Below, piece after piece: positions 14,538-32,686 of a stretch of 64,000 nucleotides of DNA (positions are counted from its first letter, which is position 1; each line of letters begins with the position of its first letter). This DNA comes from Lactobacillus sp. MRS-253-APC-2B. Its GTDB lineage: Bacteria > Bacillota > Bacilli > Lactobacillales > Lactobacillaceae. The position numbers were made by a program, and so were the translations under genes. The stretch lies in assembly GCF_012843675.1 (NCBI RefSeq), contig NZ_JABAFO010000002.1:62001-126000 (forward strand), given 5' to 3'. The notes beneath the pieces were generated by a model. The model was not told the origin of the DNA and ran no database searches. It saw nothing but the letters and a program-made list of their open reading frames with translations.

Positions 14538-14544
14538 GCATTAT

Positions 14545-14574: not shown

Positions 14575-14603
14575 GTGATTAAGGCTTAAGTCCCTAAAAC
14601 TCT

Positions 14604-17072
14604 TTATTTTGGTTGGAGTAGGTCCATAGAATACGTATAAGTCGTTTTACTCATATCATCTATATTTTCGATAATTAGATAATAGTCTCGATTATAATCA
14701 TACGTTTGTTTCTGCACGGTAATAGTGACTGAAATAACACGATCAATTGCACTACCTTTGCGATCGGCATCAATAACTACCTGATTGGAGATTAAATTAT
14801 CTTTATCATCTGTAAAGTAGACACGATATCTCGCTGGTCGTACCAAATTACTGATTGCTTTAACTTGATTAAAAGTGAGGTGCATCTGGTAATTATTGAT
14901 TTTATAGTTTGCCATAGCAAGTTTTATTTCAGCGGGAACAGCTTGTGATTTATTTGATCGTGCTTTGATATCAAGGATCGGAATCAGCATCTCTTGTAAT
15001 GAGGAACCACCATGAGCGTAATTGCTGTTAGATGACCCACGTGAGACAAAGACACTTTTACTACTTGGATAGTAAATATGTGTTGGATCATCGTTAGCTA
15101 AGGAAACTCCCATTGTTGTTTCTTTAATTCCCTTGATATTAGTTAATTGATCCTTAGTTATTAAATAGCGGGTATGTGCGTTACCATCATATTTCTGATC
15201 AGATAGGTTAATCTTGTCAGTATCTTCAAGAGGACGCTCTTGATAAAGAAAACCGTGATCTGTTGTTACAATGATATGTGAGACATTATTTGTACGCAAA
15301 ACTTGAATAGCACTTGTAATTTCCTTAATTGCCTTTTCAACACCATCGATTAGTTCATTGGTGGTTTTTGTTTCATGTCCTTTTACATCAATTTGGTTGT
15401 GGTAAAGATAAATAATGTCTTGTCCTGCAATTACCTGACGAATTTCTTTAGATGTCATATCTAAAATGTCTTTTAGTTGTAGGGCGCGACTATTTATATC
15501 ATAACTTTGTAGGATGTTTTCACGGTCTTTTATTGTAGCAACACTTTGGCCATCAACTTTAATTTTGCCTTTTTCATAACTCATACCTTTATGACTATGT
15601 GGCAACGCTAAATTCATACCAAAACTAGTAATTGAAGGTAAACTTGTTAAGGCGTAATTCATATTTAGACTTAAGCGGTCATTTTGATCAAGTTCATCTT
15701 GTAGTTGTTTTCCGACTTCGTAACGTAAGGAATCAGAAAATATAACGACAATACGTTCATTAGAGTTTTGAACATGATTAAAGTAAAAGTGTTCTTGCCG
15801 AAATTTAGGATCAACTTTTTGTAAGTCAAAAGAATTATTCCATTGTTTGATTGAACTATCAAGTTGCGTACTGTAGTAGTAATCTACTTGTGTTTTGATT
15901 TCACTATAAGGATCCGTATTTTGAATTCGGTTATAATCTAACAAGCATAAGCGATAGATTTGATCAATCTGATAGTCTTGTCGAATATAATCTTGTAATT
16001 CTTCTTGCCAATCATCTTTAGTATCTAATTGCATGTTAAATAGTAAAGCAGCCTGTTCTAAAAAGAGATACTCAGGCTCTTGGATAGCGTTATAGTTATG
16101 ACGGGTATGATCGGTCATTAATCGGATTGTTGTCATTACCATATCATAATCCGTTACACGGTTTTGAGAGAATTTATCTCGTAACCGTGCCAAAACAAGT
16201 TCGTTAACATCATCAAATAATGGTAATTTAGACAAATCATCTAAGGAGCTTTTGGCAAAAGCATCCTTTAGGTCTAACTTGTTCCAAACAAACTCAGTGT
16301 AGTACTTAAAGTCATCGGCATAACGATTAGAATCGGCATAGCGATCAATAAAGATTTGAACGTTAATGCGATTAGACAAATAATATTGATGTGGTAAGTG
16401 ATCATCTGGACAATAGGTAACTACGATGCTGCACAGTAATTCTAATAAAGATGGATTAGCTTGAGTGTAACCAAAGTTATCAGCAATTAATTGCCAGAAG
16501 GCAGCTTGAACGTTGTACTTGTTAAATTCATCTAAATATTGATTATCTTCTAAACCGGCTGACAAAACCTTCATTAGCAGTTCATTGATTTCTAGTTTTT
16601 CTGTTTTAGTAATTGCTGCTAAAATACCATATTCTGGTTTTGAGATAAAATCACGGTCCCAATAACGTTTAAAGTCTTTTCGCCGTGCTTTGGCCGCAAA
16701 GTAAGAACGGTATTTTTTAACAAAGGAAAGTTGTTCATCCGTAAGGCCTAATTCTTCAACGATTAATTGGGTTGCATCTGCACTAAAGATCTTTGAATAG
16801 CGTTCCATATCGGCTAAAAGATCCAAAGTAATTTTTGGACGATCATAAATGGCATGAACTAGGTAATGATTATTTTTATCATTACGTAATGCTAGTTTAG
16901 TTTCTAATTGATGGTTTTTGTGAGCAGTATACACTTTACCGTTTAGCTGCGGTTCAATTTCCCTAATGGTTTCTGAAAACTGATCCTTAGGGTCGAACCA
17001 GAAGACGTAAGGATATTGAGTAAAGTATTGATTTAGTTTATCAATGATATTCTGCTTAGTAAGTTCTGGCAT
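14604..17072 (-). CDS. pglZ: BREX-1 system phosphatase-like protein PglZ
   Basis: PglZ is a core protein of BREX phage defence with an alkaline-phosphatase-like fold; its exact substrate is not settled. The 822-residue length is normal for type A PglZ. The metal-site motif IVVIFSDSLRYEVGKQL places the conserved Asp at about residue 447, and the second site VTTDHGFLY has its Asp near residue 605. The start has GAGGAAAC five bases ahead. Unlike brxA to pglX, it does not follow its neighbour closely: 131 bases separate it from pglX, and these hold a strong terminator and a separate -10 box. In other BREX-1 loci pglZ is followed by brxL; here the operon ends. Confidence 0.93.
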   Translation of the reverse strand: MPELTKQNIIDKLNQYFTQYPYVFWFDPKDQFSETIREIEPQLNGKVYTAHKNHQLETKLALRNDKNNHYLVHAIYDRPKITLDLLADMERYSKIFSADATQLIVEELGLTDEQLSFVKKYRSYFAAKARRKDFKRYWDRDFISKPEYGILAAITKTEKLEINELLMKVLSAGLEDNQYLDEFNKYNVQAAFWQLIADNFGYTQANPSLLELLCSIVVTYCPDDHLPHQYYLSNRINVQIFIDRYADSNRYADDFKYYTEFVWNKLDLKDAFAKSSLDDLSKLPLFDDVNELVLARLRDKFSQNRVTDYDMVMTTIRLMTDHTRHNYNAIQEPEYLFLEQAALLFNMQLDTKDDWQEELQDYIRQDYQIDQIYRLCLLDYNRIQNTDPYSEIKTQVDYYYSTQLDSSIKQWNNSFDLQKVDPKFRQEHFYFNHVQNSNERIVVIFSDSLRYEVGKQLQDELDQNDRLSLNMNYALTSLPSITSFGMNLALPHSHKGMSYEKGKIKVDGQSVATIKDRENILQSYDINSRALQLKDILDMTSKEIRQVIAGQDIIYLYHNQIDVKGHETKTTNELIDGVEKAIKEITSAIQVLRTNNVSHIIVTTDHGFLYQERPLEDTDKINLSDQKYDGNAHTRYLITKDQLTNIKGIKETTMGVSLANDDPTHIYYPSSKSVFVSRGSSNSNYAHGGSSLQEMLIPILDIKARSNKSQAVPAEIKLAMANYKINNYQMHLTFNQVKAISNLVRPARYRVYFTDDKDNLISNQVVIDADRKGSAIDRVISVTITVQKQTYDYNRDYYLIIENIDDMSKTTYTYSMDLLQPK

Positions 17073-17105
17073 GATCGTTTCCTCTATTTTAATTACTAAA
17101 CTATT

Positions 17106-17111
17106 ATTATA
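17106..17111 (-). promoter_or_regulatory. Probable -10 box of a separate pglZ promoter
   Basis: The minus strand reads a perfect TATAAT about 35 bases upstream of the pglZ start codon and downstream of the pglX terminator. No good -35 hexamer is visible at 16-18 bases, so this is only a likely promoter. It fits the published two-transcript layout of BREX-1 in Bacillus, with pglZ opening the second transcript. Confidence 0.5.
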
Positions 17112-17148
17112 GCGCTCTTAGATGCTAATTAGCTAGAACCTGAACCAA

Positions 17149-17198
17149 TTAAAAAGCCTTTAACGATATATGGGTTTCGAATCCCTCGTTAAAGGCTT
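17149..17198 (-). terminator. Strong intrinsic terminator between pglX and pglZ
   Basis: A perfect 13-bp stem (AAGCCTTTAACGA with TCGTTAAAGGCTT) is followed on the minus strand by a T5 run. The loop holds a second near-palindrome, GGGATTCGAAACCC. It begins six bases after the pglX stop and should end the brxA-pglX transcript. Confidence 0.85.
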
Positions 17199-17203
17199 AT
17201 CCT

Positions 17204-20200
17204 TTATAATTTACTCAGTAATTTATAGCCATTTTGTAATTTAGCATGGTTAATTAAGACGCCATCGTCAAGGTCAAGATCAACCGGGTTTGCTGATAAT
17301 GAACCTAAAATTTGATCGTACTTAACGATTTCGTCAATTTGCTTTTTTACATTAGCAATAATTCGACGATCTAGAGTTTTATTTTTAGAGACTGTTTCAG
17401 CGTCCAGTAACCTTTGCGTGACTGATAAACGGTTATTCATCGCTGCTTGCAGAGTGTGCATGTTTTGCCGTACCATTGCTAATTCACCGGTATCATAACG
17501 ATGTAAGTACATCAGTGCTTTGAATCCCTTACTATGACCGGAATTGAATTCCCAGTAGATCGGGCGCTTACTGTACTTTTTATCATGATCTTTGAAGAAG
17601 TCACTAATAAAGTAGTTACGGATAATTGTTTCACTATCAGTCCCTTTAGCATATTTATTAGCGTCAAGCGCCTCAGCGATGAAATTCAAATTATCGTTAA
17701 CCGTGTCGGCACCGAAAGTCTTGGTTAAGAATTCCCGCAAACGAACGATTACATCACGTTCATCATCAAAGTATTGTGTGTCTGTTAGCATTAGCAGATT
17801 ATTCTTATTTGGCTTAAAACTAACATATTTATCTGCATCCCAGTTGCCACCAGCATAAACTAAGCCGTCGGTATCTAGAGAATAGCGACCAAAGACACAA
17901 CCAATGAAGTAGGACAAAAAGTCTTTAATATCGCGTTCCCGCTCGGCCAAGCGAACTGAAACGTCTTTATCTTCTTCTTCAGGGGTAAGTTCATCTTGTA
18001 AGCCATAGAGGTTGATGAAGATGCGGTTAAGTTCTTCTTCGTTACTCTTGAGCTGGTTGAAACGATCTTGTGCTTCGTTTTGCCAAGTGATGAAAGCTTC
18101 AGATAGCAGCCAGTTGTGGTTATGCTCTGCCACATGAAAAAGAAGCGGTGAGCGCTGGAAGTCCCAGGAAGTTTCGAAAGCGTCCCAATCGGATTTTGAG
18201 AGAGAGATGTTTTGCTGGGATATAGATGAAATATTATCTTCATTCTTGATGATAACTGGTACTGAAGAAACTTGACCTGTTTCATAGTTTATAGTAGGAG
18301 ATAGAATTCCTAAGAAATATACACTAACTGTAGAATTCAACAGAGCCAGAATATAATTATAATTGTATTCGTCATCTAAAAACAAACTTAGTCCGGCAAC
18401 ATCAAACATAGTTCCTGGTAACTTGGATCTAAACGATGGACTACCAGAAGAAACTTTACTCCAAGAAATACTTTGTTTAAACATATACTTCAAGCTTCTT
18501 GGAACAAGATGACCATATTCTCTTATATCTTGACCATCATTATACCAATTGATTACATAATCATTGTTACCATACCATTTACGGTATACTCCACCTTTAT
18601 TATAAGGGAACCACTTCTTTTTTGAATTAATAGCGGTTGTTCTAGATAGTTCTGTATAAGATATATTATTATTAGAGACTTCAAACCACATTCGTAAGAA
18701 TAGGTTATTGTTTCCCGTAGTAAAACCATTGACAGCGTTACCATAGTCTAATAACTTTTTATTTAAAAAGTTATTGATACCTTTCTTACTTGCCCAATAA
18801 GAGACCAGGCTGCCAGGGATTTTATTGAAGTTTGCTTGGTTGGCATGGTAAAGATCTTTCGTATCTTCACCATTAACAATGCTCAAATAAGCTTTTTCTT
18901 TAGTATCCTGTGAATTGTAATCAACTAGCCGTTCATAGGTGCCTTGATAGCCATTGGTTTTACCCTTTTGCAAAATAAAGCTTACGGTCTGAACAACTTC
19001 CCCGCCAATTTCTTCAAAAGCACGTGTTCCAAGATGGGCTAAATTAACGATAGTTACGTCTTGCAGCTTTTTACGCAATTTTTCAAAGTTAGATAAGAAC
19101 ATCCATGAATGTTGCGTAATCATCCCCACGTAGCCCGTTTTCTTGGTTAAATTAAGCATTACTTCGATAAAGACGCCAAACATATCTGCTTTGCTATCAG
19201 GATAGTGCTTTTGTACATATTTCTTCAAAGCAGGATCCATCTTGCCGCCGCCCATATAAGGCGGGTTGGTTACTCCAATATCGTAAGTTGAGTTTAGTAC
19301 TTGAGCAATTTCTAATAAATAAGCCAATTCTTGTTGATTATCACGCTCATCATCCATAAACGATAATTGTTCATATTGTGATTCATTTTCTGATGGGTCA
19401 CGGTCTGACTTAATAAGTTCTGATAAGGAGGCAAGATCTAGGGCATTAGTTTGAATGATTGAACCTAGATCATTACCGTTTTTAAACAAAGCCAACAAAC
19501 TAGCTAGGTCCTGCTTAACCTTTTTTTGGTCAAGTTGACTTTGCTCAATAGCAATATCGAAATCAGCAGCTTTTAGGTCCGTTACAGGAATGTCGTAAAT
19601 ATGCGGCTTTAAATCTCTTCTGAACAGTCGCCGATCGTATTCCCTGGCTTTCATTAGTAGGGCAAAATAAGACAATTGATAAGCACGAGTATCGATATCC
19701 AGGCCAAACAAATTGTTGTTTAGGATGGAAACGGCGGCTTGTCGTTTAGAATACCCTTCTGATTCATAGATTTGGCCTAAAATATCGAAAGCGTAGACCA
19801 AAATGTGCCCGGAACCCATGGCTGGATCGATAAAAGTAATATCTTGGACATCTTTGTTAGCCAGCTCTTCTTTGGAGATTTGTGAATTTTTTTCGTAACT
19901 TGGCATGTAATATTGCCAATTGAAGTCTTGAGCGATCTCCTTTTCAGTCCGCTGATCACCGCGGGCTTTTAAGATGTCAATCCAGTACCGTCCCAAAGAA
20001 TTCTCCACCATGTACTTAACGATCCAGTCCGGAGTGAATAATTGTGTAACGGCTGGAATATCACTAGTAGAATAGTTGCGTTTCTTAAATGCTGCATCTT
20101 TAGGTTCGGTGTTGTAGTACTGGTACAACCACCCGATAATCTGCACTTGCCCTTCATCTTGCACGTCGAAGTAGCTTTCGGGAATTTCGGTTACCAGTTC

Positions 20201-20833
20201 TTGAATTACACCATGATTGTAATTAGGTGTAAAAAGTAGTTTTAAGTAATCCTTGGTTTTCTCGAAGAGTCCCGGTAAGATTTCCGCTAGAGCATCACAT
20301 TGCTTAATAAAAAGTATTTCGTAGGCTTGGTCAAGCTTACGCGGGTCAAGAGATAGCTGTGCATCCCCAATTAGCTGATCTTCTTCCGGCGTAAAGTTGC
20401 CTAAGTCATCGCGCAAGTTCAAGGCTTCATCAATGATATCTGGTTCACTATTGCCACTTTCACTGGACAACACTCGTACTCGAGTAGGCAGATAGTTGTT
20501 TACTTCCATGAAGCGAATTGCAATAATTCGGTTGAACCAAGTGTAGGCAACTTCTTCGATAAAATCTTCGAGGACAGTTTGTTGGTCTTCATAATAGCCT
20601 CGGGTTTTTAATTCATTAACGATATTAGAACGCCAAGTAATTTGCTGACCAGTTAACCCGTTATTACTAACAATTTGTTCTTTAGTGTAGTATTTCAGCT
20701 CTGGTGTAGAAGCGGGCATTTCTTGACTAATCTCGCTAGTTGTAATCCCTAATTGTGCTAAGCGTTGGCTAACCGAACCGATTAGTTCCCGCCGTGCATT
20801 GATGGCGAAGTTTTTAATTTTACTTTTATCCAT
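17204..20833 (-). CDS. pglX: BREX-1 adenine-specific DNA methyltransferase PglX
   Basis: PglX methylates an adenine in a non-palindromic host motif so that BREX spares the cell's own DNA. The 1209-residue length is normal. The S-adenosylmethionine motif FIDPAMGSGHILVYAF has its Asp at residue 336. The catalytic motif TNPPYMGGG has its Asn at residue 523, the N6-adenine type. The likely target-recognition part (roughly residues 640-870, about 18220-18920) is visibly more AT-rich than its flanks, which fits the mosaic exchange known for such domains. I see no second pglX copy, invertase or flanking repeats of the kind that give phase variation. It begins 12 bases after brxC with AAAGGAAC as ribosome site. 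Confidence 0.95.
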   Translation of the reverse strand: MDKSKIKNFAINARRELIGSVSQRLAQLGITTSEISQEMPASTPELKYYTKEQIVSNNGLTGQQITWRSNIVNELKTRGYYEDQQTVLEDFIEEVAYTWFNRIIAIRFMEVNNYLPTRVRVLSSESGNSEPDIIDEALNLRDDLGNFTPEEDQLIGDAQLSLDPRKLDQAYEILFIKQCDALAEILPGLFEKTKDYLKLLFTPNYNHGVIQELVTEIPESYFDVQDEGQVQIIGWLYQYYNTEPKDAAFKKRNYSTSDIPAVTQLFTPDWIVKYMVENSLGRYWIDILKARGDQRTEKEIAQDFNWQYYMPSYEKNSQISKEELANKDVQDITFIDPAMGSGHILVYAFDILGQIYESEGYSKRQAAVSILNNNLFGLDIDTRAYQLSYFALLMKAREYDRRLFRRDLKPHIYDIPVTDLKAADFDIAIEQSQLDQKKVKQDLASLLALFKNGNDLGSIIQTNALDLASLSELIKSDRDPSENESQYEQLSFMDDERDNQQELAYLLEIAQVLNSTYDIGVTNPPYMGGGKMDPALKKYVQKHYPDSKADMFGVFIEVMLNLTKKTGYVGMITQHSWMFLSNFEKLRKKLQDVTIVNLAHLGTRAFEEIGGEVVQTVSFILQKGKTNGYQGTYERLVDYNSQDTKEKAYLSIVNGEDTKDLYHANQANFNKIPGSLVSYWASKKGINNFLNKKLLDYGNAVNGFTTGNNNLFLRMWFEVSNNNISYTELSRTTAINSKKKWFPYNKGGVYRKWYGNNDYVINWYNDGQDIREYGHLVPRSLKYMFKQSISWSKVSSGSPSFRSKLPGTMFDVAGLSLFLDDEYNYNYILALLNSTVSVYFLGILSPTINYETGQVSSVPVIIKNEDNISSISQQNISLSKSDWDAFETSWDFQRSPLLFHVAEHNHNWLLSEAFITWQNEAQDRFNQLKSNEEELNRIFINLYGLQDELTPEEEDKDVSVRLAERERDIKDFLSYFIGCVFGRYSLDTDGLVYAGGNWDADKYVSFKPNKNNLLMLTDTQYFDDERDVIVRLREFLTKTFGADTVNDNLNFIAEALDANKYAKGTDSETIIRNYFISDFFKDHDKKYSKRPIYWEFNSGHSKGFKALMYLHRYDTGELAMVRQNMHTLQAAMNNRLSVTQRLLDAETVSKNKTLDRRIIANVKKQIDEIVKYDQILGSLSANPVDLDLDDGVLINHAKLQNGYKLLSKL

Positions 20834-20845
20834 AATGTTCCTTTA

Positions 20846-23800
20846 CTAGAAGTTGATGTTTAAATCGTCGTAATTCTTCATTTCGTGTTCAATTGAACGT
20901 CGTAATTGTGCAAGATATTTATCAAGATCGGCTTCACTAGAAATGTTCCAAGTCTTATCTTGTAACAGCTGCGTTACTTGATAAGTGTGGCTAATCCGGG
21001 CTTTAACATGGACTGGTTCACTAGTTTTTGTTTTTGCGTCCGTCGTTGAAGCGTTATTGCTGGAGTTTGCATCAGAACTAGCATCTGCTGATGCAGTGTC
21101 ACTATTTGAATTTGCTAAACGAATTCGTAATTGTTCGTTAGCGTCGTTGAAGGCATTTCGAAATTCTTGATCAGTTTCTTTAATGTCCTTTTGTAAGCCA
21201 TACATTTGAGCATAGGCATTAGTGTCCTGGCTGCTGCTTAACGCTTTGGTTTTTTGATCGATTTCGTCAAAACGTTGCATAATACTCTTCTGAAGGTGAT
21301 TAATTTCAGAAGTACTAAGGGCGGAATTAGTTATTAAGTTTAATAAATCAGTTCGTTTTTGTTGACTTATGGCAGTAACTGAAGCTTGTAGTTTATCAAT
21401 TATCTTGATATATTCATCAGCGAATTGAGTATTGAGTGTTTTCAAATTACCAATACTATAACTGGCATTATCATTCCTCAAATTTTTAATAAGTTTATCA
21501 GCAGTTTCTTTTAGCGTATCATCACTAAGAAACGCTTCAGCAGCTTTATAACGTTGATAGTAATCATAGCTCCGGTTCCAGGTTTTTTGTTGTGGACTAA
21601 AGGAAGTACTGTTATCACCGTAGAAATCAGCTAAACCCTTATCTTCAAACTCGTCAGTCCAATCTTCAAATTTATCTAGATTCTTGGAGATGGTTTCAAA
21701 CAGAGTATCGCTGTCTTGATTTAAGATTGGCGTTAAGAGTCTAATGCCATCGCTCAATAATTCATGGCCAGGGTAAGCTAATTCATTAGCATAGCTTTGT
21801 TGCTTCATGTATTGCAATTTATTAATGAATTTTTGAGTTTTACTTTTAACTTCATTGGCAATTTTTTCTGACGGATCGTCAAAGTTAGACAGCATGCGTT
21901 GTTGCAGCACTTCATCTAAGTACTCTTTAACATCTTCTTTTTGCCGCTTAGACAATTCTTTTACAGGCTTCAATTTGATCTTTGAAGTATAGGTGCTTTG
22001 CACGAAGTACTTAGAAAAGTTTTTCGGATCTTTGCGAGCTTCTTCTAAGGTTAATTGTTCGTTATTATAGAATAGACGCAATTTACCGTCAGTAAAAGCT
22101 TTGGCTGCTAGCCAAGCAATATCAGCATCAGCGTAACCAAAAGGACTGTCCTTAAAATGTTTATTAACATTAGCTAGTGATATATCCTTAATCTGGTTAT
22201 TCTGTAGATCGACATATTTAAGCAGAGCATTAATGGCTTGAATGTTCTCTTCGTTGTCCAAAATACCAGCCTGATTTTTACCTGCTAAAAGATCAAAAAG
22301 ATCATCATTGCTCTTGAAAGTATCAATATAATTTAAGTTTCGATAGAGATCGTCAATTAATTGTTTCTTCGCATCAGCTAAACGAGTCTTAAAGTTACTA
22401 CCCCCACTAAGGACATTGTCTAAGACGTAAATGTCAGCATCTTGAAGATCTTTTTCAATTCGAGTGTTAGTAGATTCGCTAATTTCTTGATATTCAGCAC
22501 TTTTGACCATAATGACAGCTTGCTTGGCTGGGTCGCTTTGAGTGCTACCCTTGCTAAGGTATTCTTTCAATCGCAGACGCCGGCGCATACTTTCAATATA
22601 CTGTTCATCATTTTTAAGGGTGACGACAATTGTATTATTTCCAGCGGCCGTTAAGCTAAATTGTGCTGGATCGTAGGCATCAATTACTAATGGCGAAATG
22701 ATTTGAATATTTAATGGTCTTCCTGTTTGGTTAAGAGCACTTCCATCAATCGTTTCACTAAACTCAAAAATATATTGTTTAGGCTTCTTGGGATATTGAT
22801 ATTTTGCATCGATTAAATTGCTATTAAGTAAATAGTTACCTATTTCTTGAACAATACTACGATCATCAATATCAATAGAGTTGATCTCTTCGTTAATTTC
22901 TTGTTCAGAATCAGTCAAGAATTCATAAGTATCAACATGCTGTTGAACATAGTTTTTACGTACTAATAGTTTAAGTGATGCCGCCACTTTATTCTTAAGA
23001 GCATTTAGATCAACGTTGATGTTATCCAACATTAACGTGGTGATATTTTCTAGCGTAGCCTTAAAGGTTTCGACATACTTAACCATGAAGAGAACTGCTA
23101 AGACTTGTTCGTTAAAACCGAAATCTTCATTGTTAGGATTAACTTCATTGTCATTTTCAGCTTTAGTGAAGACAACTTGATGATCATGACTTAAGAATTG
23201 ACGCATTCCGGGGAAAAAGGCAGCAAAAGGTATTAACACGTTTATATTTGATTCTTTGTAGCGAATAGCAGCTTCCTGGAATGTAGCTAACATTGAGCGC
23301 TCTCCATCAGACATGTTTTTACCGTTAGCACCTTTACTTCGGATCATATTTAGAGAGTCTTTAAGCAACTCAAATTGATAAGGAATAAAAGGATAGTTAT
23401 TTGCAAAACGTTCAGGTGTATCGAATTTTTCTCGATTCATGCTATCTGTAAAGTTGATTTTATTATCAATGGTAAAACCTTGCTCTTGATAAAGGTTTTC
23501 CAATAATTCTTGATAATTAGGCTTTTTAGAAAGTAAACGTTTTTGAATAACTTCACCAGCATTAGCACTGGTCATAGTAATCATTGTTTTAAAACGACCT
23601 TGGATTTTAGAAAAGTCGTCACGTGTTTTATTGAAAGTGCTAACCACCGTGTTCATTTGTTGTTGAGAAGTTACGACAACCCATGCACGGCCCTGACATT
23701 GAATGCCTAGTTGTTCGACAATGGTTTGTAAATTAAGCATCTTATTGCCATCATCACCAATGAATTGTCCAACTTCATCGGCTAAAAATATAAGGTGATG

Positions 23801-24577
23801 ATCTTTACCAGCCTGATCAAGATAGTCCTTAATCAATTTAGCAAATTGTTCAGCATTAATTGAGAAGGGAGCAGGACTAGTTACATTGTCTACATAACGT
23901 TTGGCCGCCTCTTTATTGTTAATAAATCCGCATTTTTCCAGTGCTTCCTGGATGCGACTACTCAGCAAAATATAAGCACGACGAGAATCTTTCCAACTAG
24001 TATTTTCATTAAGCTCTTTAAAGACATTTTGAAATTCTTTAAACTTACCAGCTTGGTCTAGTTCACGCTCCATATTGGCAACTCTAGCTACTGGTGAATA
24101 GCCTAACTTTTCGTTAAAAACACGCAAGAATACGTCTAGAATGGTATTGCCATCTTGGATACTACTATCAGCCTTTGAATCAATATTAAAAAGAATGACG
24201 TCGTTTGGAATACTAGTAGCCTTTAAAATGCTATTTTTTAAAGAATCATCGTCAAACTTGCCATCTTCTAAAAAGTAATCGATGGCATTTTTACCAGCAA
24301 CAACATCGTTTTCAAGCAAGTAAGAGAGAATCTTTAAGAAGTGGGATTTACCAGAACCGAAGAACCCACTGATCCAAACACCCATTTCTTCAGTAGGATG
24401 CCCAATACTTTTATCGTATTCGTCGAAAAATTTCTTAAAGTCGTTTTGCAGCTCACGAGTTACAACATACTCTGAAAGTTCAGTTTGTTTAACTTGTTCA
24501 TCTTCTGAGCCAACTTTAATAACACCGTTAATTGGTCGATCGATTTGTTTAGCAAAAATTTCTTTTAGTTGTGTCAT
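20846..24577 (-). CDS. brxC: BREX system P-loop protein BrxC
   Basis: BrxC is the large AAA-type ATPase of BREX, needed for both methylation and defence. At 1243 residues it is normal or slightly long. The Walker A site GFFGSGKSHFLKIL has its Lys at residue 77. The Walker B site HLIFLADEVGQF has Asp-Glu at residues 267-268. Near the C-terminus (about residues 1150-1190) is a low-complexity linker rich in Ser, Asn, Asp and Thr. It is followed by a short helical tail, so the tail may be a flexible interaction module. It lies between brxB (12 bases upstream) and pglX (12 bases downstream) in one transcription unit. Confidence 0.95.
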   Translation of the reverse strand: MTQLKEIFAKQIDRPINGVIKVGSEDEQVKQTELSEYVVTRELQNDFKKFFDEYDKSIGHPTEEMGVWISGFFGSGKSHFLKILSYLLENDVVAGKNAIDYFLEDGKFDDDSLKNSILKATSIPNDVILFNIDSKADSSIQDGNTILDVFLRVFNEKLGYSPVARVANMERELDQAGKFKEFQNVFKELNENTSWKDSRRAYILLSSRIQEALEKCGFINNKEAAKRYVDNVTSPAPFSINAEQFAKLIKDYLDQAGKDHHLIFLADEVGQFIGDDGNKMLNLQTIVEQLGIQCQGRAWVVVTSQQQMNTVVSTFNKTRDDFSKIQGRFKTMITMTSANAGEVIQKRLLSKKPNYQELLENLYQEQGFTIDNKINFTDSMNREKFDTPERFANNYPFIPYQFELLKDSLNMIRSKGANGKNMSDGERSMLATFQEAAIRYKESNINVLIPFAAFFPGMRQFLSHDHQVVFTKAENDNEVNPNNEDFGFNEQVLAVLFMVKYVETFKATLENITTLMLDNINVDLNALKNKVAASLKLLVRKNYVQQHVDTYEFLTDSEQEINEEINSIDIDDRSIVQEIGNYLLNSNLIDAKYQYPKKPKQYIFEFSETIDGSALNQTGRPLNIQIISPLVIDAYDPAQFSLTAAGNNTIVVTLKNDEQYIESMRRRLRLKEYLSKGSTQSDPAKQAVIMVKSAEYQEISESTNTRIEKDLQDADIYVLDNVLSGGSNFKTRLADAKKQLIDDLYRNLNYIDTFKSNDDLFDLLAGKNQAGILDNEENIQAINALLKYVDLQNNQIKDISLANVNKHFKDSPFGYADADIAWLAAKAFTDGKLRLFYNNEQLTLEEARKDPKNFSKYFVQSTYTSKIKLKPVKELSKRQKEDVKEYLDEVLQQRMLSNFDDPSEKIANEVKSKTQKFINKLQYMKQQSYANELAYPGHELLSDGIRLLTPILNQDSDTLFETISKNLDKFEDWTDEFEDKGLADFYGDNSTSFSPQQKTWNRSYDYYQRYKAAEAFLSDDTLKETADKLIKNLRNDNASYSIGNLKTLNTQFADEYIKIIDKLQASVTAISQQKRTDLLNLITNSALSTSEINHLQKSIMQRFDEIDQKTKALSSSQDTNAYAQMYGLQKDIKETDQEFRNAFNDANEQLRIRLANSNSDTASADASSDANSSNNASTTDAKTKTSEPVHVKARISHTYQVTQLLQDKTWNISSEADLDKYLAQLRRSIEHEMKNYDDLNINF

Positions 24578-24589
24578 AGTTTTTCTTTC

Positions 24590-25210
24590 CTAGTCAATTC
24601 TAAATGCGCGATAGTAATTTTGATCTTTAACTTCACCAAATGCCTGTAAGCTAAAACTGTCGTATTTTCCCGGATAAAAGAAGATTACCGGATAATTATC
24701 GATTACTTGCGTCATTGCGTTTAAAATTTTATGAGTACGTAACAGGGGATAAACTTCTCCCAAACCGGTGATAAAGATAATGCTTTCATTCTTAGGTAGG
24801 CGGTTTTGAATGTATTTTACAATTGCATTATCTTCCTTGGTGATTTCCATAATATTTCCGACTTGTTCGATCAGGTAGTCCATACCATTCCTTTCCTCGA
24901 CCTTTTCTAGTTCGTTTACAGCAGCTCCATCAGTTTCGTTAGTTTCAGCAACTAGGTAATCAAAGCTTTTGATTTCTTTGATCATAATATCGAAAACATT
25001 AAAACAGCGGATGTTAAGCTGAGCAGCCATAGGTGAATCTAGGAATCGTTTTAGTAATGTCCGCATTTTTAAAGTCTCAGTGACTGGATAGTCAAAGATG
25101 TAATAGCCCACCTCATTTGAGAGACCTTGATTATGCTGAAAACTAGGTGATTGAATCTTATCTTTAAGATGTTGAAATCGTTCTTCCAAGCTATAAGTTA
25201 CTTGTGCCAT
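24590..25210 (-). CDS. brxB: BREX protein BrxB (DUF1788)
   Basis: BrxB is a small conserved BREX protein of the DUF1788 family, required for defence but with no known catalytic activity. The 206-residue length is typical. Family text includes YSLEERFQHLKDKI at the start, GYYIFDYP near residue 40 and a late strand IIFITGLGEVYPLLRTHKILN near residue 145. The start codon overlaps the brxA stop by one base (TAATG), implying translational coupling. brxC follows after 12 bases. Confidence 0.92.
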   Translation of the reverse strand: MAQVTYSLEERFQHLKDKIQSPSFQHNQGLSNEVGYYIFDYPVTETLKMRTLLKRFLDSPMAAQLNIRCFNVFDIMIKEIKSFDYLVAETNETDGAAVNELEKVEERNGMDYLIEQVGNIMEITKEDNAIVKYIQNRLPKNESIIFITGLGEVYPLLRTHKILNAMTQVIDNYPVIFFYPGKYDSFSLQAFGEVKDQNYYRAFRID

Positions 25211-25806
25211 TATCTACCTCCTAAAGCAGCTAATTCATAATCTAGTTGTGTAGCCTTCATGGTAGCTACTAAACGGGAATCTAGTAATGGAAAACGAGTA
25301 ACAAGGTTCTTACCATCTTGTTCAAAGAGCCCCGCACTTTTGGCGAGATATTTGAGAGCACCCTTAACCCTTTGAATAGTATTAACTGACCATTCGCCCA
25401 CTTCTGGATTATTAATACGTTCTACATTTAAGAAAGATTCAACTTCGTAATCATGAAAGCTAGTATCACGAACGATTATTTTAGGTCGATAAACCTCATA
25501 AATAAATTCATCCAAAATACGACTGATTAGCATGATTGAAAGTAGTGCCACTAATTTTTGATTACTTGTGTCGAGACTTGGAAATAATTCAATAATTGGT
25601 TGTGGTAAAGCTTTGACACGGGCAGCAAGATTTCCCGAACATCTTTTGGCTTGTAAAGTAGTTGATTGTCTAAATAGGTTTTCTTCGCGTCCTTGTTGTT
25701 TAATGTCTGAGATACTCATGCCATTTAAATAAAGATTAATAAATTGGCTAAGTTCTGTAGTCCAGAGTTGGTAAGAAGAAATACCTCCATTGTATTTTCG
25801 CTCCAT
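25210..25806 (-). CDS. brxA: BREX protein BrxA (DUF1819)
   Basis: BrxA is the DUF1819 family protein that normally opens the BREX-1 operon; related proteins bind DNA through a helical fold. The 198-residue length is normal. Family-like text includes KYNGGISSYQLWTTELSQF at the start, ALLSIMLISRILDEFIYEVY in the middle and WSVNTIQRVKGALKYLAKSAG near the end. The ribosome site AAGGAG is seven bases before the ATG. A likely promoter lies in the 113-base gap upstream, and its stop overlaps brxB. Confidence 0.92.
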   Translation of the reverse strand: MERKYNGGISSYQLWTTELSQFINLYLNGMSISDIKQQGREENLFRQSTTLQAKRCSGNLAARVKALPQPIIELFPSLDTSNQKLVALLSIMLISRILDEFIYEVYRPKIIVRDTSFHDYEVESFLNVERINNPEVGEWSVNTIQRVKGALKYLAKSAGLFEQDGKNLVTRFPLLDSRLVATMKATQLDYELAALGGR

Positions 25807-25841
25807 GATATACTCCTTAATTGGATTATCTTAACTATTGA

Positions 25842-25871
25842 ATTATAGCAAAATAAAACTTATAAAGCTAA
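25842..25871 (-). promoter_or_regulatory. Probable promoter of the brxA-brxB-brxC-pglX transcript
   Basis: The gap between the three-gene module and brxA carries a perfect minus-strand TATAAT at 25842-25847, about 35 bases before the brxA start. A recognisable -35 is weak (TTAGCT at 18 bases). The gap itself suggests BREX can be expressed apart from the upstream module. Confidence 0.5.
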
Positions 25872-25919
25872 AACACGAACATTACCTATCTTGTTCACAA
25901 AATAAAAGGTAATTAAGGA

Positions 25920-27599
25920 TTAAAAATGAGCATATATCTCCTTAAGCTTGTTATCAATTTCATCAGGGGCTGGCAATTCTTTTGCTCTTAGTGACTGCAG
26001 ATATCGATATAGGTCTGGCTGAGCCCTTTCATAGGTAAGAATTGCATTTGTGTAGGGGCGCGTCCAATAATTCGTGGTTGTTTTGGCTTTTTGGGCGATT
26101 TCGATCAGGTCGCTTTTCATTTTATTGACGATCTTTTCAACTTTCACATAGTTTTCAAAAGAAAGAATGCCATGTGTACTAAGATGCTCGATGTTTACGT
26201 GTTTTTGGTGAATTTCATCTTTAGCAACGATAATTCCCCAAGTGTAGGTGGTGTTGCATAAACAATAGTGTTTGGAAGAATTGACTCCGGTGTAACCAAC
26301 ATCAAATCCTATGAAACGATATTCTGATTGCTTAAAAATTTTTTCTATAGCAGAAGTGCTTAGGGAGCAAAGATGTGGAATGACCGTATCAATGGCATCT
26401 TTTTTAGGCTTTGTAAGTGATTGTGCAAAGCGTGAATATTTTGCATCTAACTTATCTTTTTCCTTTTTTAAAGTAACTTTTTCGATGCTTGTTGGACGCT
26501 TTAATTTTTGAGTTTGTTTTATTGCTGTATTGGATGGGGTTTGATCAGATTTGGCAACTGATCGGGCTTTGTCTGATTTAGAAGACTTAATATCAGCTTG
26601 ACTGGTTTCTGTTTGTGTGGTGCCATAAATTAAATCATGCAAATGGCGGTAAATTTCAAAGTCAGTCATGTAAATATGTTGTTCGGTAGCATCTTCTATT
26701 AAAGAAATCGGCCAAGAATATAATTTGATAAGTTCTTTTTCTTGGTATGGAAGCTGTTTGGGCAACTCAAAAATTACCATATTATTTAGAAACTTGTGGA
26801 TATTATTATGCGGTCTCTTTTTAAGCTCATACTTTTTTAAGTTCAAAGTGGAGTATAGAGCCCAGCAAGCATAGTTAAGATTATTGTTGATGATTGGGTT
26901 GGAACCGTCTTGTGGATAGACATGCAAGAGCCCATCTTTATTTTCAACGATGATATCGATCTGCTTTGACTGTTGATTATTTATGATTGGCAAAGCAGCA
27001 TCAAATTGTGAAGTAGCTTTAATCCATTTATCGTTTTTTCGATTAACTAATGGTAAAAAATCACGTACCGTATAGCTTGGTAAACCAAAGAGCGTTCTGA
27101 CATTGTCAACATTAGCAAGTTTTTGAATTCGGTAAAAACCAGTTCCCGACATTGACGGATGTGAATTGGATAAGAAAGAGGTACGAATAAAAAGTCGCTT
27201 ATTAAATACCGCCTTATTTTCGGATGCAGGAAAATATAGGGGTTGTTGGTTTCTTTTGGCACTCAAAAAGAAACCGGTATTAAGGTATCTTTCAAAGATA
27301 TAATCAGCAACCTTTGATGGAGTAGCATCAAAGATCTTATTGTTGGTATTTTTATTAATGCCTTTATCCTTATTGATGCTTTCAAAATGATTGATGAATT
27401 CAACGGTTGCATTGATCAAATCAGTTTTATTGATTCCATGTTGGTTTTCAGATAGAACAAAAAGCATCTGACGGGCAGCTGCACTGTAGATAATAATCGC
27501 TTGATATAGACTAGATTGCTTATCTTGCCGGTTAGCATTATCAAGTGCTTTAATGTCCAGATCATTTTGGATTTGCTGTAGGAGGGTTATTTTATCCAT
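25920..27599 (-). CDS. Uncharacterised protein, third gene of the BREX-linked module
   Basis: I do not recognise this 559-residue protein. The first half (to about 330) is a mixed globular region starting with helices. It is followed by a low-complexity linker of about 60 residues rich in Lys, Ser, Thr and Gln (roughly 335-395). The C-terminal domain begins near residue 420 and contains RFIGFDVGYTG, HYCLCNTTYTWGIIVAKDE and a helical tail. No nuclease, helicase, methyltransferase or P-loop motif is evident. Its ATG shares one base with the stop of the gene upstream (TGATG), so the two are translationally coupled, and CAGGAG lies just before it. It ends 113 bases upstream of brxA. AT-rich codon use matches the BREX genes, suggesting joint acquisition. 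A defence role is inferred from position only. Confidence 0.8.
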   Translation of the reverse strand: MDKITLLQQIQNDLDIKALDNANRQDKQSSLYQAIIIYSAAARQMLFVLSENQHGINKTDLINATVEFINHFESINKDKGINKNTNNKIFDATPSKVADYIFERYLNTGFFLSAKRNQQPLYFPASENKAVFNKRLFIRTSFLSNSHPSMSGTGFYRIQKLANVDNVRTLFGLPSYTVRDFLPLVNRKNDKWIKATSQFDAALPIINNQQSKQIDIIVENKDGLLHVYPQDGSNPIINNNLNYACWALYSTLNLKKYELKKRPHNNIHKFLNNMVIFELPKQLPYQEKELIKLYSWPISLIEDATEQHIYMTDFEIYRHLHDLIYGTTQTETSQADIKSSKSDKARSVAKSDQTPSNTAIKQTQKLKRPTSIEKVTLKKEKDKLDAKYSRFAQSLTKPKKDAIDTVIPHLCSLSTSAIEKIFKQSEYRFIGFDVGYTGVNSSKHYCLCNTTYTWGIIVAKDEIHQKHVNIEHLSTHGILSFENYVKVEKIVNKMKSDLIEIAQKAKTTTNYWTRPYTNAILTYERAQPDLYRYLQSLRAKELPAPDEIDNKLKEIYAHF

Positions 27600-29602
27600 C
27601 AGTCAAGCTCCTGGAATTTCATTAAATAATGGGCAGTTGGTGTATCATCTTTGGTCAGCAGCTCATTAAGCAAATGCTTTTTACCACTTGCATAGACATA
27701 CCCAAATAGTGGCAGGTAGACATCGCGTTTGTCTAGAGCTTTGGTTATCCAGGCAGTCTCTTCTTCGATATGCTTTCGCATTGGTTGATTGATACCTTTG
27801 AGATTGTCAAGATGAGGATAGTCAAATATATCAAAACGAGTACTCTTATCAATTGCTGGGGTTATAGCTACTCGGGATGACTGCAATCCAAAAATATCAG
27901 TAAAAATTGGTGTTGCAAAATTATATAAACCTCGAGGCGCCAAGTTCAAATCATCCATAAAGCTTTCGGTCAAGATGACCCACTTATTAGGTAAGTGTAC
28001 TAGCGAATTAATATGTGACAGCCAAGAGCTCCCCGCTAGGTTATTCAAGATAATAGCAGGCGATTTGATATTTTTAAGTTCTTGAAGAATAGCTGCTGAG
28101 AATCTACCAGTGCATTCAATCTGCGTTGCTGGTTGACCCGTTAAAAGTAATGCAGCTAATTGAGCGATATCAAGTGCATCGTCACCAATTAATAAAAGAG
28201 GACGATTTTGATTGTGAAGTATATAGAGATATGCTGTTAGTTCGCCGAGAAGGCTATGATTGTTGATCATTGGCTCTAAGGTGTTTTTAAGCGCATTATA
28301 TACGTCTTTTGCATTGGTAGTCTCAATAGGTGCTGTTTGTGGGTCAACATTAAACTTAATGGGATTAAATGGTGAGATCGCCAGATGATGGGGGTGACTG
28401 ACAGGATTAGTTTTTGGCATCATAGCCTGATTAAAGGCCATTTCCGCAATAAAGTCAGCAGCATTTTTTCGCGCGTCTTCAATTCGTTGATGGACCTTAG
28501 CTTCAACATCCGTGGCTAATTGCTGTTGTGATTCGAGCTTTTCTTTTTTAGCCGTCAGCTCCTCAATTTGTTTGGTAAGCTCAGTTTTCTTGGTACTGAG
28601 TGAGCTGATATCTTTTGTTAGTTTTTCTAGTTGTTTTGTCTTAGAGTCATTTTGCTTTTTCCAGTCGTCTTCAATTTCGTTAATGGCTACCTGACGAATT
28701 GACTCATTGTTTTTAATTGTGTACTTGAGGTTAGCCATATCCTCATCATTACCAGTTGCCAGATTTTGTGCGTTCTCAAAGATGTCTTCATAGGCGTCAT
28801 TGACCTTTTGAATGTCATAGTGGTACTGTTCGGCAAGCTGAGCAGTCCAGTCATCCTCATTAAGATCATTTAGAAACGACTTGAACAACTTTAAATTTTG
28901 AGAATATTTACCGGCTTTTGCGGTATGATCTTTAAGCCGTTCTAAAATTTCGGAACGAACGATGCCATAAACATCTTTGGTTGGAACGTTTGAGATATTT
29001 GGTGAATATATCTCAAGATTCTCTTCACTGGTCAAAAAGAATCGATCATTTGCATTCTTTGGAGCAGCAACTTCATAGCAGTATTTACGAAGTTGTTTTC
29101 TGGTATCAAAGTTGTATTTCCTAAGAAACGTATTGCTGGATTTAAGACCATATTTATGACCACTATCTTTTAAGTAGAGGTCGTTTTTAATATCAAGATA
29201 CAGCCCCTGTACTTGACCATTGGCCGACGGTGCAGTTAACACTAAAGTATTGTAATTAGGATGATCAATATTGAAGCCGGATGTTCTAAGTGCTTTAATA
29301 ATCTCTTCAGGTCTACTAAAACTACTTTTTTGAACAACAACCGGTAGTTTTTCGGTCCCCTTAGATAGTTCGAGATGTTGTTCATATAGTCTAAGATCGC
29401 AAAAGATATAAGACTTGCTGTAGTTTTTAAAATGGTTTTGAATATATGGATTGGTGCTTAGATCAATCTCTGGATAATCGTAATTGCCGACTGACTTCAA
29501 GATACCAGAAGCTTTGTCAAATTTTGCCTTGCAGTAGGCGGTCAATTTATTTTTATCTGAATAGTCGATTAAAAACAGTGATGTACCAATTAGTTCGTTC
29601 AT
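27599..29602 (-). CDS. Uncharacterised coiled-coil protein with degenerate NTPase-like domain, second gene of the BREX-linked module
   Basis: This 667-residue protein has three parts. Residues 1 to about 290 form a mixed globular region. Residues about 300-385 are a long, strongly charged coiled coil with heptad-like runs such as KLTKDISSLSTKKTELTKQI. The C-terminal domain looks like an AAA/McrB-type fold that has lost its key residues: LLLIGDDALDIAQLAALL (near 465) sits where a P-loop would be but lacks GK[ST], AIILNNL (near 512) lacks the Walker B acids, and WVILTESFMDDLNLAPRGL resembles a sensor-1 strand. It is therefore more likely a structural or regulatory partner than an active ATPase. 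It overlaps its neighbours by one base on each side (TAATG and TGATG). The fold assignment is inference. Confidence 0.8.
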   Translation of the reverse strand: MNELIGTSLFLIDYSDKNKLTAYCKAKFDKASGILKSVGNYDYPEIDLSTNPYIQNHFKNYSKSYIFCDLRLYEQHLELSKGTEKLPVVVQKSSFSRPEEIIKALRTSGFNIDHPNYNTLVLTAPSANGQVQGLYLDIKNDLYLKDSGHKYGLKSSNTFLRKYNFDTRKQLRKYCYEVAAPKNANDRFFLTSEENLEIYSPNISNVPTKDVYGIVRSEILERLKDHTAKAGKYSQNLKLFKSFLNDLNEDDWTAQLAEQYHYDIQKVNDAYEDIFENAQNLATGNDEDMANLKYTIKNNESIRQVAINEIEDDWKKQNDSKTKQLEKLTKDISSLSTKKTELTKQIEELTAKKEKLESQQQLATDVEAKVHQRIEDARKNAADFIAEMAFNQAMMPKTNPVSHPHHLAISPFNPIKFNVDPQTAPIETTNAKDVYNALKNTLEPMINNHSLLGELTAYLYILHNQNRPLLLIGDDALDIAQLAALLLTGQPATQIECTGRFSAAILQELKNIKSPAIILNNLAGSSWLSHINSLVHLPNKWVILTESFMDDLNLAPRGLYNFATPIFTDIFGLQSSRVAITPAIDKSTRFDIFDYPHLDNLKGINQPMRKHIEEETAWITKALDKRDVYLPLFGYVYASGKKHLLNELLTKDDTPTAHYLMKFQELD

Positions 29603-31188
29603 TAATAATATTCTCCGTTGACGATTTTATTTAAGATATTTTTAGCTTTAATTGTGATGTTCTGTTGGCGGGCTTGACTGCATACCCATTGATAAGTAGT
29701 TGGATAATCTGTCAGTGATCTTTTAAGTCGGTTGGAAACGATAGTGAAAGTTGTTGCTTCACCGATTTGTCTTTTTAGCAGGTTGAGCAGCTCTGAATCA
29801 TTAAGCCTGCTTTGATCATTGTTAGCCGATGACTTATCGATAATTGATGGCTGAGATTGAGACGGTTTAGATTGAGGCTTGCTAATTTTTGCCGTTTGTG
29901 AGAATACACAGTCAGCACCATAGAAAACCTTTAGACTAGAACCGGCAACCAGGTTAGGTAAGCAGAATGGTTTGTTAGCCTCAAGCGATTGACTGCTAAC
30001 TTCAAATTTACCCATATATTGTTTTAAGGTGGCATTATATAAAGGCTTTATGTAATGATGATGCTCCTTTGTATATGGCTTGAGTGATAGATCATTTTTT
30101 GATTGTTCACTGGCTTGAGAGGTTGGAATAAACTGCTTGTAGTTGGCAATATCGTTAGTATTTCGACCATAAGCAACAACCATCCCGTTATTATCATTAG
30201 GTTTTAAAGTGAACAGCTGTGGATTTTCAAACAGTTGTAAGAGCCGGTCTTGATCAAGATTTGGACGTTTATTGGTTCTTGGAGCATAATCAAGCCACGC
30301 CTGGCCATGTTTATAAAGGTAAAGCGTATCGCCCAAATAGCTGATGCCATCTTCATTTTTGAAATGCTCGGGCCAGATTAAATCAACATCAGCAACGTTT
30401 TTGGTGATTCGATAATCAATTCCCGCATCATTACCGAGATCGTTTATTTGCAAAAAGGGCCTAAGTTTATTGGGACCAAAATGTGTATCAAAGCTAATTT
30501 GAAAAACGTTCCAACCGTTTGAATGTACCAGCAGTTTTTCATTGATTCCGGGGTAGGTAAAGCTATTTTTCGTCGTCAAAACAATATATTCATTATTGGG
30601 ATTTAACTCCCCACCCAGATTGACTCGCATGCCATCACTACTTCTAAAAATTAGATACTTTGATTGAAGAGTTTCAAAATCGGCAATTTTATCAGAGTGA
30701 TCCGGCAAATCATTATAAAGAGTATATTTATTGGCAACAGTGCTTCCCAGATTAACCTTGGTTGAAAAATTATTCGGGTCAATTTTGACTGGTGCAATTT
30801 TCTGAATTTTTTTGTGATGTTTATGATAAATACCCAAATTTTTGTACTTAGATAGTCCAGGATTGGCTGCATGTGGAAGTACCAACTCTAAATGGAATTT
30901 TTGTTCTTTATCAATGACTATCTTAAGTCCAGCAAAATGAGTCGGAAGTGTAAATAAGGCCTGCTTAGAACGTTCAGGACAGTTTTTATCGATGTCTCCT
31001 TTGCTGTGTTTGAAATAAGGATCTCTTACTTTGCCAACACTGAGGGTAACAAAGTGATTGCAAAGATCGCACAGTAACCGCTTTTCATTAGCTCTGATGG
31101 TATGGCAATGTGATTTTTCAGATGCCTCTTTGACAGTAACATGATGCCAGTCCCCGTTTTCCCAATAACTGACATGATTTAAACTCAT
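29602..31188 (-). CDS. Uncharacterised protein with CoiA-like N-terminal zinc site, first gene of the BREX-linked module
   Basis: This 528-residue protein begins with a probable zinc site: Cys40-x2-Cys43, then the pattern DPYFKHSKGD with His61, then Cys70. This is the arrangement seen at the N-terminus of competence protein CoiA-like proteins. The rest, about 450 residues, is mostly beta-rich text I cannot place. A Ser/Gln-rich linker near 430-455 and a helical C-terminus follow. CoiA relatives often carry a nuclease domain after the zinc site, but I see no clear catalytic motif. It is the first gene of the module, has only a weak GGGGAT ribosome site, and its stop overlaps the next start. 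With the two following genes it forms a unit directly upstream of BREX. Confidence 0.78.
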   Translation of the reverse strand: MSLNHVSYWENGDWHHVTVKEASEKSHCHTIRANEKRLLCDLCNHFVTLSVGKVRDPYFKHSKGDIDKNCPERSKQALFTLPTHFAGLKIVIDKEQKFHLELVLPHAANPGLSKYKNLGIYHKHHKKIQKIAPVKIDPNNFSTKVNLGSTVANKYTLYNDLPDHSDKIADFETLQSKYLIFRSSDGMRVNLGGELNPNNEYIVLTTKNSFTYPGINEKLLVHSNGWNVFQISFDTHFGPNKLRPFLQINDLGNDAGIDYRITKNVADVDLIWPEHFKNEDGISYLGDTLYLYKHGQAWLDYAPRTNKRPNLDQDRLLQLFENPQLFTLKPNDNNGMVVAYGRNTNDIANYKQFIPTSQASEQSKNDLSLKPYTKEHHHYIKPLYNATLKQYMGKFEVSSQSLEANKPFCLPNLVAGSSLKVFYGADCVFSQTAKISKPQSKPSQSQPSIIDKSSANNDQSRLNDSELLNLLKRQIGEATTFTIVSNRLKRSLTDYPTTYQWVCSQARQQNITIKAKNILNKIVNGEYY

Positions 31189-31336
31189 AATATCCCCAAC
31201 TTTTCATTATTAAGTAAATAACATGTTTAATTTTAACACGTGAAAGCGATTGAGATTAATTGTTAACTGAAAACCCTGTCACTTCACCAAGTTAGTTTAT
31301 AACCATATCAACTCCAAAAGTCATGCACACAGTCAA

Positions 31337-31366
31337 TTGACAGTCTCATTCCAAACTCGCTAGAAT
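31337..31366 (+). promoter_or_regulatory. Promoter of the NmrA-like reductase gene
   Basis: TTGACA (31337-31342) and TAGAAT (31361-31366) are 18 bases apart, about 30 bases before the start codon. Confidence 0.72.
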
Positions 31367-31395
31367 AAATTAACTAGCGAAAGGAAGCGATTTCA

Positions 31396-32337
31396 ATGAC
31401 AAAAGTTTTACTGACTGGTGTTGGGGGCAATCTGGGAACGCAGGCAGCTGAAGATCTCATACGCTTGACTGATCCGAAGAACCTGATCTTTGTTGGTTAT
31501 GATGAAGCGGCATTGGCAAAGTATGCTGAAAAAGGAGTCGACACGCGCCAGGCTGATTTCAACCATTTGGATGGTTTGGCTGACAAATTCAAGGGTGCCG
31601 ATGTCTTGGGGTTGATCTCAATGCCATTTGTTGGGCAAAAACGTCAGCAGGCTCAGCAAAACGTGGTAGATGCGGCCAAAGCAGCTGGAGTCAAAAAGAT
31701 TGTCTACACTTCTTTGGTTAATGCTCAGGATCCAACCAATCCAAGCAAGGAAAAGATCGACCATGCCTTTACTGAAAAATACATTGAAGATAGTGGCTTG
31801 GACTACATTTTCCTGCGTAACTCACAATACGCTGAGGCCATGATCACCAACTATTTCACGTTCGTCAAAAACGGCGGGGTGCTGATGAACAACCAGGGCG
31901 ATGGCAAGATGGCCTACATTTCGCGTAAAGACTGTGCCAAGGCGATGGCTTATGCGCTGCTGGCTGACGATCGGCACCACCAGATTCTCAACATCAATGG
32001 TGCCGAATTGATGACGATCAGCGACTTTATCAAAATCGGTAATGAACAGACTGGCAATCACGTTACCTATAAAGAAGTCACTGACGAAGAAGACTACCAG
32101 ATCTTTGATGCGATGGGTGTGCCGCGGACCACGGATGGACAGTTCAAGAAGGGATCTGAAGCGCCATTTTCTTCGGAGGGGATGGTGACGTTTGGCCAAG
32201 CCATTCGCGAAGGCAAGATGGATACTTTCACCGATGACTTTAAGAAACTGACTGGCGGTGATCCAATCACGGTTGCCGAAATGTTTGCCCACAGTGATGA
32301 CTATCAGATTGGTGAGCGCCACTCCAAAGACGACTAG
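31396..32337 (+). CDS. NmrA-like NAD(P)-binding oxidoreductase
   Basis: This 313-residue protein has the N-terminal dinucleotide motif LLTGVGGNLGTQAAEDL (about residues 5-21) of the atypical short-chain dehydrogenase/NmrA group, which includes NAD(P)H:quinone reductases of the QOR2 type and redox sensors. Further marks are VKKIVYTSLVNA near residue 105 and LDYIFLRNSQYAEAMITNY near residue 135, typical of the family. It has its own promoter and terminator and a clear GAAAGGAAG ribosome site. G+C content is back to the chromosomal level, so the island ends just before it. Substrate and direction are unknown. Confidence 0.88.
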   Translation: MTKVLLTGVGGNLGTQAAEDLIRLTDPKNLIFVGYDEAALAKYAEKGVDTRQADFNHLDGLADKFKGADVLGLISMPFVGQKRQQAQQNVVDAAKAAGVKKIVYTSLVNAQDPTNPSKEKIDHAFTEKYIEDSGLDYIFLRNSQYAEAMITNYFTFVKNGGVLMNNQGDGKMAYISRKDCAKAMAYALLADDRHHQILNINGAELMTISDFIKIGNEQTGNHVTYKEVTDEEDYQIFDAMGVPRTTDGQFKKGSEAPFSSEGMVTFGQAIREGKMDTFTDDFKKLTGGDPITVAEMFAHSDDYQIGERHSKDD

Positions 32338-32356
32338 GCAGATCCTTAGTTAACGC

Positions 32357-32400
32357 AAAAACGACCTCACAGCACTATGCCGTGGGGTCGTTTGCTTTTT
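32357..32400 (+). terminator. Intrinsic terminator after the NmrA-like gene
   Basis: AAACGACCTCAC pairs with GTGGGGTCGTTT (G-T pair included) and is followed by GCTTTTT. Confidence 0.82.
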
Positions 32401-32686
32401 GGAATTAAAATGTTCAGCTTGTCCGATATTCATTATTGATTGCATAAAATATCTGAGCGAAAATTCATAACACACTTTTGAAGCAAAAATACGATTTTGT
32501 GTGTAAAAACTTCGTGCCGATTTCATTTTCTGCGATTTGATTACACGCAAATCACTAAAAAATCCCAAAAAGTGTGTAATAGTCAATTCGACATACAGAT
32601 TAGGTTGGTAGCTGTTGAAAAGTCGAAACCGTCGTTAGGACTTGTGCGAACTGGCAGTCCTTGAAATGTCAAACCGCGTTGATAAA
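32401..32686. other. Gene-free spacer with spaced inverted repeat
   Basis: With the terminator before it this makes a gap of about 350 bases. The only pattern is ACACACTTTT near 32470 and the complementary AAAAGTGTGT near 32567, with GTGTGTAA repeated between them. No reading frame or known RNA is seen. Confidence 0.45.

Follow-up and report, generated by a model that had tools for sequence, protein, structure and literature searches.

A three-gene cassette of a lactobacillar defence hotspot as a candidate stand-alone anti-phage complex

The described systems closest to the locus considered here are Druantia type I (DruA-DruB-DruC-DruD-DruE), the competence protein CoiA, and BREX type I. Here, we describe a trio of minus-strand genes, T1, T2 and T3, in a 64,000-nucleotide stretch of Lactobacillus sp. 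MRS-253-APC-2B (contig NZ_JABAFO010000002.1, positions 62,001 to 126,000; hereafter the window), where the trio lies next to a BREX locus. We put the probability that the trio is a stand-alone defence complex separate from BREX at about 0.5, a function that we infer. More tentatively, and at less than even odds, we propose that the trio is a stand-alone anti-phage system of three proteins that belongs to Limosilactobacillus, is distinct from Druantia and is so far undescribed. It would comprise a zinc subunit, a P-loop-free coiled-coil scaffold, and a third subunit bearing a CxC/HLxxH module, would work without a nuclease or helicase that can be recognised within it, and would move between genomes at a hotspot independently of BREX, Type III restriction-modification (R-M) and CRISPR. 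In the part of the literature covered, we found no work joining Druantia with BREX, BrxL and lactobacilli, and, judged by titles and the starts of abstracts, none of the matches listed for CoiA and anti-phage defence, for L. mucosae defence islands, or for DruB and zinc reports a trio of this kind. Parts of three papers bear on the Druantia question (PMC12458937, PMC13316683, PMC13192584).

The trio and its recurrence in a second species

T1 (29602..31188, minus strand) is the first gene of the trio and encodes a 528-aa protein with an N-terminal CoiA/DruB-type zinc domain and an unassigned remainder. T2 (27599..29602, minus strand) encodes a 667-aa protein with a long coiled coil and no Walker A motif, and T3 (25920..27599, minus strand) a 559-aa protein without a named domain. 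Each gene starts with ATG and has no internal stop, and the T1/T2 and T2/T3 junctions, TTATTAATGAACG and GACTGATGGAT, are one-base overlaps. These data verify the coordinates and junctions of an initial annotation of this DNA, which had described three minus-strand genes of 528, 667 and 559 codons with one-base overlaps, and the overlaps support co-translation, in line with its view that the three are made together. The same annotation had noted that the trio is AT-rich like the adjacent BREX genes, and our measurements agree: GC content is 37.5% for T1, 38.0% for T2 and 35.5% for T3, 34.1-38.6% across the five BREX genes, and 47.5-49.9% in five stretches of the flanks.

The trio recurs as a unit elsewhere: Limosilactobacillus mucosae DSM 13345 (G032) encodes all three genes, in order, as full-length orthologs with amino-acid identities of 57% (T1), 73% (T2) and 61% (T3). 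Ka/Ks between the two species is 0.22 for T1, 0.19 for T2 and 0.21 for T3, indicating that the trio is under purifying selection and that its genes are kept functional. Given the full-length orthologs and these ratios (0.19-0.22), the three open reading frames are evidently real and not chance. Synonymous divergence (Ks) is 1.38 for T1, 0.93 for T2 and 1.16 for T3, against 0.20 for the flanking genes Oxc and Frc, 0.29 for HrcA, 0.25 for DnaK and 0.41 for DnaJ, which indicates that the trio did not simply descend with its core flanks. T2 is also uneven along its length, with 84-94% identity to its ortholog over residues 301-500 and 50-66% over residues 1-300. The 60-codon blocks starting at codons 301 and 421 show synonymous differences of 0.25 and 0.12, compared to 0.40-0.82 in the other nine. 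This pattern suggests that T2 is a mosaic, with recombination between alleles at codons 301-360 and 421-480.

Outside these two species we identified no further trio. In a search of 293 relatives, the T2 protein found the trio in this genome (G000) and in L. mucosae, the one match among the 292 others, and a T3 profile gave a full-length match in one of 119 other relatives, again L. mucosae. When 84,980 species genomes were scanned for patterns of the two T2 sequences, 171 stretches matched, one of them a relative, the L. mucosae locus; such scans overlook distant relatives. Among 397 other genomes of the class, a T2 profile found eight weak matches that we judged to be chance or coiled coil (six lay in the coiled coil, one covered 249-329, and one was short with stops), and three T3-profile matches in 397 other genomes of the phylum were dropped as chance, being short with internal stops. 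Plasmids gave no tblastn match to T1, T2 or T3, phages none to T3 (the one query used), and pattern scans of viral contigs with T1, T2, T3 and the C-terminal module of T3 found no relatives.

A variable defence hotspot and its BREX occupant

Flank alignments with L. mucosae and a third genome that shares the site (G014), in which pieces of at least 150 bp were listed, define a variable defence hotspot at 14548..32681 that holds the BREX core, the trio, and an NmrA-like gene. The shared flanks reach to ~14537-14547 on the transporter side and resume from 32682-32688 on the phosphoribosyltransferase side. At the same site, L. mucosae carries a SNF2-type protein, a 437-aa gene, Type III Res and Mod, and then the trio, while G014 carries a Type III block followed by Cas1, Cas10, Csm3, Csm4 and Csm5 (CRISPR III-A), with no T2 match in its genome. 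Between the flanks, the only DNA common to the window and L. mucosae is 25942-31251, the trio with ~60 bp upstream, at 72% nucleotide identity. The trio's residence among defence genes, claimed in the initial annotation, is thus borne out by a hotspot with R-M, BREX and CRISPR, and the alignments indicate that the trio is a swappable cassette within this hotspot of gut lactobacilli.

The BREX type I core (PglZ, PglX, BrxC, BrxB and BrxA, by family matches) lies outside the trio at 14604..25806, downstream on the same minus strand, with all five genes found and 113 bp separating the end of T3 from BrxA. The BrxL ATPase (PF13337) was not found in this genome (completeness 99.89%, 54 contigs) or in L. 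mucosae. The trio's adjacency to BREX, their common strand and composition, and the missing BrxL would all fit a trio that acts as an accessory of the BREX locus or as a substitute for BrxL. We consider this quite improbable: the L. mucosae trio adjoins a Type III R-M block, and five BREX proteins gave no tblastn match in the 39 kb around it or in an 18-kb stretch of contig C11. L. mucosae is not among the 25 BrxC-matching genomes of 243 searched, a set in which its own place is not evident. Nor is the absence of BrxL unusual: among 24 related genomes in which BrxC has a homolog, BrxL is missing from 18 and present in six. In the T2 search of 293 relatives, the trio came up in this genome and L. 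mucosae and in no other. A BREX survey records BrxL in 2913 of 3937 taxa, and its main text does not contain the terms Druantia, CoiA or Lactobacill (PMC12839542). We therefore reject the trio as part of BREX, and with it the coupling to BREX proposed in the initial annotation, as the only DNA of the site shared with L. mucosae is the trio.

It is possible that the BREX genes or the trio have a promoter of their own. A 207-bp gap separates the T1 start from the divergent NmrA-like gene, and the stretch just upstream of T1 (31189..31251, minus strand), the end of the block shared with L. mucosae, is a probable promoter or leader region. A consensus scan found no minus-strand promoter-like sites upstream of T1; in 25600-26000 it found two, which is the level of shuffled sequence (mean 1.9), and no terminator.

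We made several further observations at these loci. A Cas1 gene fragment (window 5644-6206, open reading frame 5691-6110) is 90.6% identical in nucleotides to the CRISPR III-A Cas1 of the G014 hotspot, a CRISPR remnant ~8 kb outside the present hotspot border. The Type III blocks of G014 and L. mucosae align as two pieces (88.0% and 93.7%), and the alignment has a gap within Mod; the middle of the Mod genes (L003:16583-18538 in L. mucosae, L077:1497-3401 in G014) is unaligned amid 88-94% identical DNA, and looks as if the target-recognition part had been swapped. At the right hotspot border, both species encode a helicase with a Schlafen group 3-type domain (window 33569-35200; L004:8069-9850), with a GIY-YIG match just below cut-off and PADLOC matches to Nhi and AbiO. 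Finally, three Limosilactobacillus BREX loci without BrxL (G037, G004 and G025; L050/L051, L052/L053 and L054/L055) carry a 134-aa gene between PglX and PglZ, which is Fic/DOC in G037, the one tested, and, downstream, an 869-aa gene that gives an RNA_helicase-type match.

Zinc domain, coiled coil and C-terminal module

A motif scan of T1, its ortholog and two DruB proteins placed a CCHC zinc motif in T1 at residues 40-70 (C40, C43, H61 and C70; 30979..31071, minus strand). T1 shows weak, below-cut-off Pfam matches to CoiA_N (E 0.028) and DUF7830, together with a PADLOC DruB1 match of E 6.9e-7 that spans profile positions 16-104 of 552 (T1 ortholog, E 1.6e-4), supporting the CoiA-like zinc-site protein of the initial annotation. 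By hhalign, T1 residues 37-106 align with DruB at E 2.5e-5 and 75% probability. Having this zinc domain is not specific to DruB, because another frame of this genome, 351 aa long and probably CoiA, has a better match to the DruB profile (E 3.8e-6) than T1 does (E 1.4e-5). This frame and G674 were left out of the counts as CoiA-like.

T2 contains a predicted long helix, a coiled coil, at residues 286-392 (28427..28747, minus strand), called from a low-confidence AlphaFold model (two-sequence alignment, mean pLDDT 39.2) and coiled-coil-type family matches at ~250-400. We discounted as coiled-coil or chance matches the PADLOC hits of T2 to DruG, LmuB, JetC, Csm3, ZorA, PbeC and DruC, and those of its ortholog to ZorA, JetC and DruG. 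The initial annotation had called this a coiled-coil NTPase-like protein; the coiled coil stands, whereas the NTPase label is not supported as given, and we rejected a P-loop NTPase as no Walker A motif was found.

T3, whose AlphaFold model from a two-sequence alignment has a mean pLDDT of 34.3, ends in a module at residues 397-556 (25932..26411, minus strand) that has zinc-type motifs, a CxC (446, 448) and an HLxxH (472-476). A 457-aa L. mucosae protein (L092:5464-6837) carries a homolog of this module (E 2.3e-24, 31% identity), and the C, C, H and H are invariant across three sequences. The two halves of the 457-aa protein resemble distant copies of one domain, and its N-terminal part also shows weak similarity to the T3 module (E 0.02).

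The trio could be a far-diverged Druantia type I core (DruB-DruC-DruD) that lacks DruA and DruE and uses another helicase, for instance the L. mucosae SNF2 protein or a host helicase. The gene order is as in Druantia type I, and both T1 and its ortholog match DruB1. We compared the trio with yardstick loci from E. coli (L070), the P. putida plasmid pKF715A (L022) and a distant genome of the phylum, G620. Past the zinc domain, the likeness of T1 to DruB is not significant. T2 aligns with DruC at E 0.061 and T3 with DruD at E 0.3 by hhalign, and decoys outscore both. In 20 shuffle comparisons, the T2-DruC score was reached by 13 of 200 shuffles with the coiled coil and by 171 of 200 without it, and the T3-DruD score, the best of the coiled-coil-free comparisons, by 10 of 200. 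By eye, the C-terminus of T2 resembles DruC and T3 270-325 resembles DruD, a likeness that hhalign, decoys and shuffles failed to confirm. The G620 DruE, 47% identical to E. coli DruE, finds itself in G620 and has no match at E 1e-3 in this genome or in L. mucosae; tblastn likewise found no DruA or DruE in the window or the L. mucosae locus, with DruA queries from E. coli and G620 that are matched in G620. Because the DruC and DruD comparisons fail against decoys and shuffles and DruE is not matched, we do not file the trio as Druantia, though it may still work like the B-C-D part of that system. We regard a Druantia core as unlikely, a little more so than at first because the probable CoiA matches the DruB profile better. 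The initial annotation had matched the trio to no named system; a weak match to a known defence or competence family was found, that of T1 to DruB, and it is no better than that of the probable CoiA in the same genome.

Searches for further Druantia with DruC proteins returned one P. putida plasmid and G620 itself, while E. coli DruC was found by DNA; queries with the DruC and DruB of P. putida found no solved structures. In G620 (L012, C3:9500-29499), a Druantia type I locus carries DruB-DruC-DruD-DruE in order; downstream, the opposite strand encodes a homolog of DruA with 47% identity to the E. coli protein.

Function of the trio and comparison with known systems

In our preferred reading of a stand-alone defence complex, T1, T2 and T3 would act together as a complex and detect either foreign DNA or a signal of infection. 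The setting makes a defence role plausible. Residence among defence genes and recurrence as a unit agree with the multi-subunit defence complex of the initial annotation, with the defence role itself no firmer than plausible. Several points weigh against this reading. The defence role is drawn from the setting and from domain resemblance, and no effector motif was found in the trio. The trio is known from two species of one genus, so only two cases underlie its association with the site. The trio is not exceptional in its high divergence, as the border phosphoribosyltransferase has a Ks of 2.15, and the scan of 25600-26000 lends no support to a separate BREX promoter. The trio might instead be cargo with another role, such as DNA uptake or DNA processing, present in the hotspot by chance, as its zinc domain is common to CoiA and no catalytic motif was found in it; with the rest of the site given over to R-M, BREX and CRISPR genes, and with no CoiA nuclease domain found in T1, we view this as rather improbable.

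Should the trio act in defence by itself, it would represent a multi-subunit defence complex without an effector recognised by current family libraries, and the T3 module would flag related proteins in other islands. The hotspot offers a natural experiment in related lactobacilli, combining BREX with the trio, Type III R-M with the trio, or Type III R-M with CRISPR.

Compared with known systems, the trio is like Druantia type I in its order of zinc protein, coiled-coil protein and third protein. The CCHC zinc domain of T1 matches DruB no better than the probable CoiA does, no counterpart of DruA or DruE was found, and T2 and T3 are not established as DruC and DruD. T1 shares the type of its N-terminal zinc domain with CoiA and differs from it in its 528-aa length and in having no Pfam match to the CoiA nuclease domain. 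BREX type I resembles the trio as its neighbour in the window and in composition, whereas the trio proteins match no BREX family and the L. mucosae trio has no BREX beside it. The 457-aa L. mucosae protein is like T3 in its CxC/HLxxH module and unlike the trio in that we could detect no similarity between it and T1 or T2; residues 12-204, its N-terminal part, fall in a family that occurs on L. salivarius plasmids.
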